Source of the DNA: Pseudomonas sp. 31-12
Lineage (GTDB): Bacteria; Pseudomonadota; Gammaproteobacteria; Pseudomonadales; Pseudomonadaceae
NCBI RefSeq assembly: GCF_003151075.1
Contig: NZ_CP029482.1
Coordinates: 4,712,001 to 4,776,000, forward strand
Direction: 5' to 3'
DNA length: 64,000 bases
Under the pieces are notes generated by a model. It made no database searches and was not told the origin of the DNA. It worked only from the letters and a program-made list of their open reading frames with translations. This document shows, piece by piece, positions 56,921 to 63,066 of this stretch. A program made the position numbers and the translations under genes. Every line of letters begins with the position of its first letter. Within the stretch, counting starts at the first letter, position 1.

Positions 56921-57598
56921 ATGACGTTGCAGATCGGTTTTCTGTTGTTTCCACAGGTTCAACAACTGGACCTCACCGGCCCTTACGACGTACTGGCTTC
57001 GCTGCCGGACGTGAAGGTGCACCTGATCTGGAAGGACCTTGTGCCGGTGACTTCAAGCACTGGACTGGTGCTGAAGCCGACCACGACTTTCGACGATTGC
57101 CCGGCGCTGGATGTGATCTGCATTCCCGGGGGCAGCGGTGTCGGGCCGTTGATGGAGGACGAGCAGACATTAGCCTTCATCAAGGCTCAGGCGGCCAACG
57201 CGCGTTATGTCACGTCAGTGTGCACCGGGGCGCTGGTGCTCGGCGCGGCCGGTCTGCTGAAGGGCAAACGCGCGACCACTCACTGGGCTTATCACGAACT
57301 GCTGGCACCTTTGGGCGCGATACCGGTGAAGGATCGCGTGGTGCGCGACGGCAATCTGCTGACCGGTGGCGGGATTACCGCCGGGATCGATTTTGCTCTG
57401 ACCCTGGCCGCCGAGTTGTTCGATAAAGACACGGCTGAACTGGTGCAGTTGCAACTGGAATACGCCCCGGCACCGCCGTTCCATTCCGGCAGCCCGGAAA
57501 CGGCGCCGCAAAGCGTATTGGCAGAAGCTCATCGGCGTTCAGCGCAATCATTGCAGCAACGGGCGCAGATCACTGAGCGGGCAGCGGCCAAGCTGTAG
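56921..57598 (+). CDS. inhA: Isonitrile hydratase (DJ-1/PfpI family)
   Basis: 225 residues. IGFLLFPQVQQLDLTGPYDVL at the N-terminus, PGGSGVGPLMEDE, then the nucleophile elbow SVCTGALVLGAAGLL (Cys about 101) and ATTHWAYHELLAPLGAIPV, with GGGITAGIDFAL near 150. These stretches match P. putida isonitrile hydratase InhA, which hydrates isonitriles to N-substituted formamides using the elbow Cys. Cytoplasmic. Divergent from the GlxA-type regulator and followed by the rsmX pair on the other strand. Confidence 0.9.
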   Translation: MTLQIGFLLFPQVQQLDLTGPYDVLASLPDVKVHLIWKDLVPVTSSTGLVLKPTTTFDDCPALDVICIPGGSGVGPLMEDEQTLAFIKAQAANARYVTSVCTGALVLGAAGLLKGKRATTHWAYHELLAPLGAIPVKDRVVRDGNLLTGGGITAGIDFALTLAAELFDKDTAELVQLQLEYAPAPPFHSGSPETAPQSVLAEAHRRSAQSLQQRAQITERAAAKL

Positions 57599-57615
57599 GA
57601 GCACTTTTCGACAGG

Positions 57616-57735
57616 AGAAAAAAAACCCGCCTCGGCGGGTTTCTCAAGACCATTTTCGACATCCTGTCGGCAGCCGTCCTGGCCAATGGTCGATCATCCG
57701 TGATCCTGAGGCACTCCCTGTGCTTCAGTTGATGG
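57616..57735 (-). ncRNA. rsmX: RsmX-type small RNA, downstream copy
   Basis: About 119 nt on the minus strand, ending in the terminator CCCGCC-TCG-GCGGG plus eight T near 57616. Five GGA motifs: in ACAGGGAG (loop of GAAGCAC/GTGCCTC), TCAGGAT, CACGGATG (loop of GATCA/TGATC), CCAGGACG and ACAGGATG (loop of CGAC/GTCG). GGA in hairpin loops is the hallmark of the GacA-activated Rsm RNAs that sequester RsmA/RsmE (CsrA family). A -10-like TTATTC is at 57741-57746 and the TSS is inferred near 57734. The first half (ATCAACTGAAGCACAGG) is shared with the upstream copy. Confidence 0.85.
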
Positions 57736-57789
57736 ATCCAGAATAAGCGTATCGGCGAAGCATCAAAAGACGACATGCCCGTTAAGCCG

Positions 57790-57807
57790 TGTAAGCCTTT
57801 GACCATT
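57790..57807 (-). promoter_or_regulatory. Probable GacA upstream activating sequence, copy 2 (half conserved)
   Basis: The CTTACA half of the GacA box (TGTAAG-N6-CTTACA) is exact on the minus strand; the other half is poor. It is centred about 65 bases before the inferred start, the same offset as in copy 1. Confidence 0.5.
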
Positions 57808-57845
57808 CGAGCCATGAAGCACCACCGAGTGCAGTTTTCAGCAGA

Positions 57846-57964
57846 CGAAAAAAAACCCGCCGAAGCGGGTTTTCCCAAGACCATATCGACTCCCTGTCGG
57901 TAGCGAATCCTTGCTAATGGTCGATCATCCATGATCCTGAAGCACTTCCTGTGCTTCAGTTGAT
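57846..57964 (-). ncRNA. rsmX: RsmX-type small RNA, upstream copy
   Basis: About 119 nt on the minus strand; terminator CCCGCTTCGGCGGG plus eight T near 57846-57865. Six GGA motifs, three in small hairpin loops: GAAGCAC-AGGAA-GTGCTTC, GATCA-TGGA-TGATC and CGAC-AGGGA-GTCG, with CAAGGATT and others between. GACCAT/ATGGTC can close a larger stem. The -10-like TAATCT is at 57971-57976. RsmX of P. protegens is reported at about 119 nt, which agrees. It titrates RsmA/RsmE and so relieves repression of secondary metabolism and biofilm genes under GacS/GacA. Confidence 0.88.
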
Positions 57965-58020
57965 GAGGCTAGATTACGCATCGGATCCAATGTGCAACAG
58001 ACGACATAGCTACCATCGCG

Positions 58021-58038
58021 TGTAAGACATTCGCTATA
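58021..58038 (-). promoter_or_regulatory. GacA upstream activating sequence of rsmX copy 1
   Basis: On the minus strand TATAGC-GAATGT-CTTACA: one exact and one partial half-site of the GacA box TGTAAG-N6-CTTACA, centred about 66 bases before the inferred start. Confidence 0.65.
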
Positions 58039-58066
58039 CCCGCCCTTCCGAAAACCCTTAGACGCG

Positions 58067-58867
58067 TCAGGCATCCAGCATGGAAGCCGCGAGTTCAGCG
58101 GCCTGCAGCTGACCTTGTGCTGCAACGTCATCGTTATCCTCAAGAAACCATGCCGCCGACAATCCCGCAAACGCCAACACCCATTGCAGCAGCCGGCGAC
58201 GTTCAAGCCCCGCGACTTCGGCTACGACCTCGATTTGTCTTTGGAAGCGTTGTGGATGAGTCGCCGTCGGCAATTCGGGATTGCAGATCAGGTTGGCGTA
58301 GTCGAACCCGCGCTCGCCCATTACCCGCTTTGGATCGATGGCCAGCCAGCCTCGCGGGCCGAAATCCAGAACGTTGTCGTGGTGCATATCACCGTGCAAA
58401 ACCACCACGTCCTGCGGTGCGGCGAGCAACGCTTCGGCGGTTATCAGGCTGAACAAATAAGTGCCGCCCTGCCTCTCGGCCGCCAGGCGCAATGAAGCGA
58501 ACCATGAAGACAAGGGAATCAGCGGCGGTGGTGGTGATGGACGCGGAGCATGCAAACGAGCCAATGCCGCACACAGGATCCGGCTGGCTTCGTCATCCTG
58601 GCCGTTGAGCGCCATGCGCATCAGCGATCGCTCACCCTCGGCACGTTCAAGCACCAAGGCTTCGCTGTGATGGGCGTAAACCCGCGCGGCACCCTCGCCG
58701 CCCCACCAGGTCATCAGCAGATTGCCGAACTTTTCCTCGGCATCAATGGCGACTTTCAACATGGCCGGTGAATCATCCATCCGTACCGGCAGCAAACGAC
58801 TGCCGGGCGTGATGATCGGTTCGCCGTCCGGCACCAGGGCCCAGCGCTCCAACCAAGGTTCAAACAT
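58067..58867 (-). CDS. Aminoglycoside/hydroxyurea phosphotransferase-type kinase, APH(6)-like
   Basis: 266 residues. The kinase-like catalytic loop VVLHGDMHHDNVLDF (Asp about 170) and the metal-binding Asp in GWLAIDPKRVMGERGFDYAN are those of the APH(6)/streptomycin 6-kinase and hydroxyurea kinase family. Cytoplasmic, no signal peptide. Chromosomal members in Pseudomonas often have no proven resistance role, so I do not call it a resistance gene. Only 7 bases separate it from the upstream SRPBCC gene on the same strand, which suggests an operon. Confidence 0.87.
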   Translation of the reverse strand: MFEPWLERWALVPDGEPIITPGSRLLPVRMDDSPAMLKVAIDAEEKFGNLLMTWWGGEGAARVYAHHSEALVLERAEGERSLMRMALNGQDDEASRILCAALARLHAPRPSPPPPLIPLSSWFASLRLAAERQGGTYLFSLITAEALLAAPQDVVVLHGDMHHDNVLDFGPRGWLAIDPKRVMGERGFDYANLICNPELPTATHPQRFQRQIEVVAEVAGLERRRLLQWVLAFAGLSAAWFLEDNDDVAAQGQLQAAELAASMLDA

Positions 58868-60166: not shown

Positions 60167-61285
60167 TTACCGGACAAATATCTGCGCGGTGGTAATCGCC
60201 ATATCCCCACCCGGCAATTTGATGTTGCCGATCTGCTTCATGCTCTGCGGATCAAAAATCGCCACATCATTGAACGTCCCGGCCAGATAGATCTTGCTGC
60301 CGTCCTTGTTGAAGGAAATGCAGTAGTAAGAATGATCCAGCGTCGCCGCCTGCAGCATTTTCTTCTCCTTGATGTCGTACTTGGCCAAGCGGTTGAGCAC
60401 GCCAAACATCAGGTTCGGATCCTTGGGCGAGCGCATGCCACTGAAGTAGATTTCCGTCAGCGGACCAAAGTCGGTGGTTTCGGTCTTGCCGGTTTTCAGG
60501 TCGATGCTGAACAGTCCGTACAGGTATTCGGCCGTTGCGGGGTCCTGCTTCTTGTCCTTGAATTTCGCCGTGGTGTAAAGCAGCGAGAAGTCGTGGCGAT
60601 AGGTCTGCTGGTTCCACACGTAAAGCACGTCCGGCGCACTGTAGTTCGGTCGTTTCCAGTGGCGACTGGGGATCAGCACGTCGAACTTGCCGGTCTTCAC
60701 ATCGACCTTGTAGACATCCGCCCCCGCCACATACAGCGTGCCGTCGTCACCGCTCTGCATGATGGTCAGCTGCCGTGGTGCCGGGAAACTGCGCACGGGT
60801 TTGGCGTCCATGCCAGCGTCGGTGGCGTAGACATCGAGCCGAGGCTGTTGCACTTCGTAGCGGTCATTGAGCATCAATGTCGGGTTGGCGATGGCGAACA
60901 GTTCCTTGCCATCGTGGCTGAGGGTGAAGGCGAACATCGACTTGGCTTTCTCCCCCGGTTTCTGGGTGATGCTGGCGTGGAACACCTGCTTGCAGCTGTC
61001 GAGTTCAACGCCGTAGACATCGGCGTAGTGATTGTTCAGCACGTAAGCGGTCTTGCGATCCGGCGACAGCTGCACGGTGCCAGGGCCGAATGCATCCGGC
61101 ATCTTGCAGGTCTTGAGCACCGTGTCGGTGGCCAGGTCGATGATGTGCAGGTTGTTCGGATAATTGGTGGTCACCATGTACTCGTGACCGGCTTGTAATG
61201 CGGTGTTTTCATCGGCCAGAACAGTGAGCGCAGAGGTGCTCAGGACGGCGAATGCGGCCAGGCCGCAGGCTTTGATGCTAGGCAT
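60167..61285 (-). CDS. qhpB: Quinohemoprotein amine dehydrogenase, beta subunit
   Basis: 372 residues from ATG 61285. Signal peptide KACGLAAFAVLSTSALTVLA, then a seven-bladed beta-propeller of WD/YVTN type (NLHIIDLATDTVLKTCKMPD, VQLSPDRKTAYVLNNHYADV, YCISFNKDGSKIYLAGTFND). Length and sequence agree with the roughly 37-kDa beta subunit of QHNDH from Pseudomonas and Paracoccus. It forms the periplasmic heterotrimer that oxidises primary amines to aldehydes and packs around the CTQ site of the gamma subunit. Last of the four genes visible; 25 bases downstream of gamma. Confidence 0.93.
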   Translation of the reverse strand: MPSIKACGLAAFAVLSTSALTVLADENTALQAGHEYMVTTNYPNNLHIIDLATDTVLKTCKMPDAFGPGTVQLSPDRKTAYVLNNHYADVYGVELDSCKQVFHASITQKPGEKAKSMFAFTLSHDGKELFAIANPTLMLNDRYEVQQPRLDVYATDAGMDAKPVRSFPAPRQLTIMQSGDDGTLYVAGADVYKVDVKTGKFDVLIPSRHWKRPNYSAPDVLYVWNQQTYRHDFSLLYTTAKFKDKKQDPATAEYLYGLFSIDLKTGKTETTDFGPLTEIYFSGMRSPKDPNLMFGVLNRLAKYDIKEKKMLQAATLDHSYYCISFNKDGSKIYLAGTFNDVAIFDPQSMKQIGNIKLPGGDMAITTAQIFVR

Positions 61286-61310
61286 GCTGGAATCCTTCTT
61301 CTCTGTCCGA

Positions 61311-61634
61311 TCACTTGTCTTTAGGGAAGACAGTGCCAAGGTTGCGCCAGTTGTCGTTGGACGCCTGGGCATCCTTGTTCCAGTCCGGGTAGGTGCTCAT
61401 CATGTCGGGCACCTGGGCCGGCCACCAGCAAGGGTCGGAACAGCCATAAAGGTCGGCTTCCATCGGCTGGCACAGCGACGACACCCCGCCAAACGCATCG
61501 ATCTCCCAACCCGGGTCGGTGGTCGAGGCGCAGCCCGCAACAGAGCTCATCGCCACCACTTCTTCGATACGGTTTTCGGCCGCGGCCTCATCGAGTTTCA
61601 ACGCTTTATTATTGATTGCCTTGAGATGTTTCAT
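61311..61634 (-). CDS. qhpC: Quinohemoprotein amine dehydrogenase, gamma subunit (CTQ-bearing precursor peptide)
   Basis: 107 residues from ATG 61634, one base after the qhpD stop. The first 28 residues ([10 protein letters not shown] to EEVVA) form a leader with no classical signal peptide. The mature part carries the published cross-link residues at exactly the right spacing: Cys35-Glu44, Cys55-Asp61 and Cys69-Asp77 thioethers, and Cys65-Trp71 forming cysteine tryptophylquinone. In mature numbering these are 7-16, 27-33, 41-49 and 37-43. The key stretch is [16 protein letters not shown]. QhpD installs the thioethers; the peptide is then cleaved and exported. The frame extends upstream to 61733 but that overlaps qhpD. 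Confidence 0.95.
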
Positions 61635-61635
61635 A

Positions 61636-63066
61636 TCAGTGAGCCTTGCGCGGAGTGATGTAGCTGCTGATAAACGCAGGGTTGTGGGCCATGATCCGGG
61701 TGTAGACCTCGATGCCGAAGTCGACCCAGTCACGCATCAGTTCGCAGTAGTGATAGGTCGGGTGGGTCGGGTCGCCGTAACGGGCGTAGCTCTCGTGGTA
61801 GCAACCGCCGGAGCACAGATTGCGGATCTGGCAGTCCTCGCAACCGGTGTTGGTACGGTCCAGGCGCTGGGACAGGAAGTCGTTCAATTCCACCTGTTTC
61901 ACACCGCTGTGGACGTTGCCGAAGGTCGGCAGTGATGAACCGGTAAAGCGATGGCACAGGTTCAGCTCACCCTTGTGATCCACCGCCAGCATCTTCAGGC
62001 CCGCGCCGCAAGGCAGGGCTTTTTTGTGGCCTTCGTGGATGTCGGTGATCAACTGGTGCAGGTTGGAAAAACCGATGTTGCGGTGCTCCAGCGCGGCTTC
62101 CAGATAACGACGACCCAGCCTCTTCATGCTGGCGAAGACTTCGATCAGTTCGTCGCTGGACAGGTTGAAGGTGCTGATGTCGCCGGAGGTCACGGGGGCA
62201 AAACCGACTTCGGCAAAACCCAGTTCGTTGAACAGGTGGTCCCAGATGGTTTCCACATCGGTCACGCCCGTCGTCAACGTGACCCGGGCGCCCACCGGAC
62301 GGCTGTTGTAGCGCGACAGCAGCATCTCGGCCTTGCGCCGCACCACGTCATACGTGCCCTGCCCGCCCACGGTGATGCGGTTGCGGTCGTGCACGGTTTT
62401 CGGTCCGTCGATACTCACCGAGAGCCCGAAACGGTGGGCATTCAGGTAGTCCACGGTCTCTTCGGTGAGCAGCGTGGCATTGGTGGTCATGACGAACTCG
62501 ACGAACTTGCCGGCCTCGCGGAAACGCTTCTCGCAATAATCGACCATGTACTCGATCAGCTTGCGATTGCTCAGCGGCTCGCCACCGAAAAACACCACGG
62601 TGAAACGCTCTTCATCCGGCGATTCGCGCAGCAGCATTTCCACCGACGCGATCGCGGTTTCGACGTCCATTTTCTTGCCCGCCGAGGGTTTGTCGAGGTC
62701 TTCCTTGTAGCAGTAGGTGCAGCTCAGATTGCAGCCGGTGTTGACGTTGAGCACCACGGTATTGATCGCGGTGCGCTCCACGCGTTTGGTGCCGATGTCC
62801 GGGGTCAACGGCGAGCCGTCGCTGACCAGCTCCAGGGACATCAGCTCGCGCAGGGTCTCGGTAATTTCTTCGCCGTTGAAACGCGAGGCCAAACGCTGGA
62901 TCAAGTCCTCCGACGAACAGCCGGGACCGCGCAAGGTATCGATGATGGTGCCCGTCAGTTCATCGCTGGCGAACAGCGAACTGCTAGGGATGTGGAACAA
63001 CATGCGGTCGGCATCGACGTGCACTTCGTGCAGGTTCCGCTCAACCAGATTCAAAATAGCGCCCAT
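61636..63066 (-). CDS. qhpD: Radical SAM peptide-thioether synthase for the gamma subunit
   Basis: 476 residues. An N-terminal peptide-recognition-like region (1-95), then the radical SAM cluster [10 protein letters not shown] (Cys112, 116, 119) with FFGGEP, and a C-terminal SPASM region with Cys in [34 protein letters not shown] and YHYCEL, enough for two auxiliary Fe-S clusters. QhpD forms the three Cys-to-Asp/Glu methylene thioether bonds in QhpC. It sits between the alpha and gamma genes, the standard qhpADCB order, and is coupled to qhpC (one-base gap). Confidence 0.95.

Follow-up and report, generated by a model that had tools for sequence, protein, structure and literature searches.

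On the chromosome of Pseudomonas sp. 31-12 (6.73 Mb, one contig), a sequence-only reading of the window (the whole 64,000-nucleotide stretch of DNA analysed here) had placed a tandem pair of RsmX-type small RNA genes on the minus strand, about 230 bases apart. The pair is flanked by an APH(6)-like kinase gene at 58067-58867 and by a DJ-1/PfpI gene at 56921-57598. The locus raises the questions of whether both units are rsmX, how old the pair is and whether the downstream copy is a working paralogue, a recent duplicate or a remnant.

Two tandem rsmX genes and their genomic partners

The Rfam covariance scan that had been proposed for the pair was passed by both units, each of which spans all 114 positions of the rsmX model RF02144 at a score far over its cut-off (gathering score, 56 bits):

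57850-57964, minus strand: rsmX, upstream copy (RF02144, 109.8 bits, E = 6.7e-20, model positions 1-114)
57620-57733, minus strand: rsmX, downstream copy, paralogue (RF02144, 103.9 bits, E = 1.5e-18, model positions 1-114)

Both genes are rsmX and form a pair of tandem paralogues, as first identified, lying head to tail with a start-to-start spacing of 231 bases. Direct repeats of 72 nt (85%) and 74 nt (73%) connect the units; the RNAs are 83% identical over a 115-column alignment and the promoters 61%. No further Rfam family matched at or above its gathering score anywhere in the window, and no other rsmX copy exceeded the cut-off elsewhere in the genome, where two weak matches (34.4 and 32.6 bits against a cut-off of 56) were treated as chance. 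Other identities for the two units were considered and rejected: RsmY (RF00195) scored 42.3 bits on the downstream and 32.3 bits on the upstream copy against a gathering score of 57, the sole genome match to RsmZ (RF00166, gathering score 44) sits elsewhere, and istR and other families matched the same stretch weakly, below cut-off. A minus-strand open reading frame across the pair (57570-57932) had no Pfam match and was taken as chance.

The genome also carries the partners expected of an Rsm system. One RsmY (125.8 bits, cut-off 57) and one RsmZ (138.7 bits, cut-off 44) lie away from the rsmX pair, and three CsrA-family genes were found above cut-off, together with one GacA-family regulator (316 bits against 280 for NF007018, which we take to be the model for UvrY/SirA/GacA). 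The flanking kinase gene places the window near Pseudomonas sp. BGI-2 (90%) and P. mandelii 6A1 (88%); its product matched four APH(6) models, in each case under the NCBIfam cut-off (for example, 306.6 versus 460 and 257.5 versus 325). Elsewhere in the window, positions 60167-63066 encode quinohemoprotein amine dehydrogenase beta and gamma subunits and a radical SAM maturation protein, all above cut-offs.

RNA structure and control elements

The upstream copy contains six GGA motifs and the downstream copy five. These counts agree with the earlier reading, which had placed all of them in loops; that placement does not hold, since the Rfam structure puts four per copy in hairpin loops. Nor did the stem co-variation reported between AAGTGCTTC and GAGTGCCTC survive inspection, as the two copies share the 5' arm GAAGCAC and an A-C mismatch is present in the downstream one. 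Hairpin 1 of the downstream copy contains one mismatch. Against shuffled sequences, the RNA strands folded only moderately better (z = -4.3 and -3.6), and the opposite strands scored better still (-7.9 and -4.9), so the fold score cannot choose the strand, which is chosen by the Rfam match. The minimum-energy fold of the upstream copy lacks Rfam hairpins 3 and 4 as drawn.

Base pairing was assessed in an alignment of 32 copies (31 distinct), hand-picked from about 70, using the structure of the Rfam match adjusted at hairpin 4. Pairing was kept in 95.8% of 1059 cells and fell to 26-43% when partners were slid out of register. Six pairs were altered on both sides (shuffled mean 3.5, attained by 2 of 500 shuffles) and 13 further pair types were present (shuffled mean 11.2, attained by 31 of 500), both counts being inflated by related rows. 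The alignment supports the rsmX structure, with caveats on this kinship and on hairpin 1, which a gap misaligns in many rows (one pair has 18 unpaired cells and the next has 19 gaps).

Each copy is accompanied by its own set of candidate control elements, the hexamers being read from the sequence by resemblance only:

58021-58038, minus strand: GacA-type upstream activating sequence (UAS) of the upstream copy, TATAGCGAATGTCTTACA, which fits the published UAS of P. brassicacearum NFM421
57971-57976, minus strand: -10-like hexamer TAATCT of the upstream copy
57848-57873, minus strand: terminator of the upstream copy, stem CCCGC/GCGGG and eight T
57790-57807, minus strand: GacA-type element of the downstream copy, AATGGTCAAAGGCTTACA, right half intact and left half diverged
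57740-57745, minus strand: -10-like hexamer TATTCT of the downstream copy
57618-57643, minus strand: terminator of the downstream copy, stem CCCGC/GCGGG and eight T

The terminators with eight T, the -10-like hexamers and the CTTACA half-site some 65 bases before each start had all been noted from the letters, and all are present. Counted from the first model base, the hexamers span roughly -12 to -7 and CTTAC starts 62 bases ahead in both copies, and each terminator would end its transcript in the 105-120 nt range expected of rsmX. A simple terminator scan called no terminator in the rsmX stretch, a result that we set aside because the eight terminator pairs are intact in every lettered cell across the 31 distinct copies. 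A two-hexamer sigma-70 scan called no promoter in the same stretch and was likewise set aside, because activator-dependent promoters often lack a -35 element.

The NFM421 UAS pattern, searched with its three centre bases left free and up to 3 mismatches, matched the upstream element with 0 mismatches and nothing else in the window (0.26 matches expected by chance). The palindrome TGTAAGN6CTTACA, at up to 3 mismatches, gave 9 window matches versus 7.4 expected by chance, including the upstream element. At this tolerance the downstream element was missed by both patterns in the window; its left half fits the palindrome poorly, so activation of the downstream copy by GacA is not certain. In the same genome, rsmY is preceded by a complete palindrome with six-base arms, TGTAAGAGAATGCTTACA (given on the strand opposite to the RNA), and rsmZ by a palindrome with six-base arms and one mismatch, TGTAAGTCTTTGCTTACT.

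Distribution, age and divergence of the pair

At least 178 of 298 genus genomes contain rsmX above cut-off. Relatives of the flanking kinase were located at 75 loci, 38 from Pseudomonas and 37 from other organisms. In 33 of the 38 Pseudomonas loci, rsmX stands beside the kinase, roughly 100-210 bases beyond its gene, and blastn at E 1e-5 gave no match in the 37 others. Judged by this position, the upstream copy is the one that stands at the same place in relatives. More than one rsmX was present in five of the 33 loci (two copies in L042, L045, L077 and L114, three in L058), a count in which L110, whose sequence stops 42 bases past its copy, could not show a second. Once stretches of further genomes were included, 18 loci besides the window were counted as having a pair of the window's own type, at spacings of 213 to 638 bases, with at least one repeat among them (L077 and L145 are identical, on contigs of equal length, 32634).

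These relatives bear on whether the downstream copy is decaying into a pseudogene, its promoter weakened. The left half of its GacA element has diverged and hairpin 1 carries a mismatch, and such loss does occur: in Pseudomonas sp. ANT_J12, a third rsmX (L058:6485-6596) has a palindrome that we take to be REP-like on its promoter side, where the CTTAC element belongs, and no CTTAC element in the preceding 100 bases, and is probably silent. The downstream copy of the window, by contrast, retains a full-length Rfam match (103.9 bits), the right half-site and the terminator; its RNA is 87-96% identical to downstream copies at 15 other loci, and of 20 downstream copies, 17 have five GGA motifs, two have six and one has four. 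We consider decay quite improbable. The 21-base spacer between the window copies aligns at 5-69% with those 15 loci, a rough figure given spacer lengths of 10 to 428. Palindromes of the same REP-like kind lie in the inter-copy spacers of L042, L058 and L146 (start-to-start 430, 346 and 638 bases), the motif having been counted in L058 and recognized by eye in the other two.

Same orientation and a 231-base unit would also be expected of a recent tandem duplication within this lineage, a reading to which we give almost no credence. A tree with the two window copies as sisters was rejected (p = 2.6e-5), and in a 33-row tree of 21 hand-chosen loci, the rows of which carry 15 promoter bases, all 12 downstream copies fell to one side of a branch supported at 99/99 (in this tree, as in the 46- and 70-row trees, the bootstraps were still unsettled). 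The window pair is firmly not a recent duplication, and its two copies are not sisters. The 70-row tree was poorly resolved, with 33 of 61 inner branches open and four changes needed for the downstream group. In the 46-row tree, which was built without the third copy of L058 and without 18 loci that are distant or of another type, the downstream group takes three changes, and a single clade was neither shown nor rejected for all 19 downstream copies (p = 0.098) or for the 18 that remain when G010 is left aside (p = 0.275). On these results we do not claim a single origin of all downstream copies. The pairs at L005, L007, L009, L010 and L148 cluster in a clade distinct from the window's type (100/99), a split that points to more than one origin of tandem rsmX; the pair of G010 (spacing 213) may be a separate duplication.

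The earlier reading had described the second half-site as decayed in copy 2. The divergence is real; private decay is not, as 15 of the 19 downstream copies carry the core TGGTCAA (14 of 18 when the repeated locus L145 is discounted), the exceptions being L011, L141, L142 and L144. The whole motif ATGGTCAANNGCTTACAC occurs in 11 of the 19, and the right half is CTTACA in 18 and CTTACG in L114. Across the genus, the ATGGTCAANNGCTTACAC pattern was found in 16 of 296 genomes, once each, with none for the backwards control; of the eight of these sites that were extracted, seven precede a downstream copy (the window, G005, G052, G082, G086, G113 and G219) and that of G028 a single rsmX. A smaller genus genome, G028 (L133), has a single rsmX with a ATGGTCAA..GCTTACAC element like those of downstream copies. 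The element has the form TATAGC[G/C]AAAGGCTTACACG at many rsmX loci in the genus, and upstream copies of the window's type have TAT[A/G]GCGAATGTCTTACACG in 13 of 19, with deviations in L042, L114, L142, L143 and L144 and no CTTAC visible in L147, where the copy lies at the contig start. Compared with one another rather than with a reconstructed ancestor, the elements suggest that upstream copies altered the centre and kept the left half, and that downstream copies did the reverse. On this comparison, the "decay" of the downstream element is better termed an old divergence.

Such a divergence could mean that the downstream paralogue has been subfunctionalised and is in part controlled differently, through a UAS variant that binds GacA in another way or binds a further factor besides. 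The shared TGGTCAA core and the genus-wide ATGGTCAANNGCTTACAC counts point in this direction, as does the comparison within 16 loci, in which the two promoters are 55-67% identical versus 79-88% for the RNAs. However, the relatives share ancestry, so common letters are no proof of selection, and the second copy of P. brassicacearum is described as exclusively GacA-dependent (PMC7911923). We regard this reading as possible but rather unlikely. We would be equally tentative about its extension, that the downstream lineage kept its own variant of the GacA element (core TGGTCAA, right half CTTACA) over many species and that the two genes have long and stably divided their tasks, the second perhaps answering a different level of GacA-P or a further factor.

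Proposed function and known tandem systems

We consider it very probable that the locus holds two paralogous tandem rsmX genes, separately transcribed from GacA-activated promoters, the RNAs of which sequester RsmA/RsmE-type proteins. The RNA family, predicted structure, promoter element, terminators, partner genes and non-recent origin of the pair are observed in this genome; transcription, GacA dependence, sequestration and a weaker second promoter are carried over from work on P. brassicacearum. By that analogy, each gene would be transcribed on the minus strand from its GacA-activated promoter to its own terminator, yielding RNAs of about 115 nt whose GGA-bearing hairpin loops would bind and sequester RsmA/RsmE-type proteins, lifting translational repression while GacS/GacA is active. 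The second copy would raise dosage and would probably respond more weakly to GacA.

Paired rsmX genes are already described in related Pseudomonas, and the window pair is real but ordinary. According to Lalaouna et al. (2021; PMC7911923), P. brassicacearum NFM421 has rsmX-1 and rsmX-2 in tandem; northern blot, 5'RACE and a lacZ fusion showed that transcription of rsmX-2 strictly requires gacA, and gacA phenotypes were restored when rsmX-2 was overexpressed. The gene is expressed 8-fold less strongly, which the authors suggest UAS mutations may explain, and RsmA/E sequestration is likewise their inference (PMC7911923). Extra titration capacity and separate control, as raised in the sequence-only reading, are in print there for a relative. 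NFM421 resembles the present genome in its tandem rsmX (spacing 211 versus 231 here), a GacA UAS or GacA-type element before each copy, RsmY and RsmZ besides, and three CsrA/RsmA homologues; it differs in that its copies are 75% identical (83% here), its second UAS is "almost identical" (left half diverged here) and its GGA motifs number 6 and 6 (6 and 5 here). The spacing of 213 in G010 is near the 211 of NFM421.

The same source also lists tandem rsmX in F113 and P. stutzeri (as potential) and in three P. syringae strains, where rsmX-3 and rsmX-4 lie 292 bases apart (PMC7911923, Table 1) and where, unlike in the window, there are five rsmX copies. The pairs at L005, L007, L009 and L010 are spaced 290-314 bases, near this value, and may be called syringae-like by inference; the L148 pair is spaced 238. 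Work on P. syringae names rsmX1 and rsmX5. In contrast to rsmX, PrrF1 and PrrF2 act in iron regulation by base pairing, not by protein sequestration. Like the rsmX pair, these two RNAs of Pseudomonas aeruginosa are tandem duplicate regulatory small RNAs (from a title cited in PMC7911923). In the literature searched, we found no paper on rsmX in Pseudomonas mandelii and none that treats the GacA upstream activating sequence and linker of rsmX and rsmY together.

What is new here is that the pair is old, that its two GacA elements appear to have diverged in different halves and that the claim of co-variation is corrected. The locus adds one more Pseudomonas lineage with a duplicated, non-recent rsmX, and Rsm RNA dosage and promoter divergence thereby become comparable across species, with the general picture unchanged.
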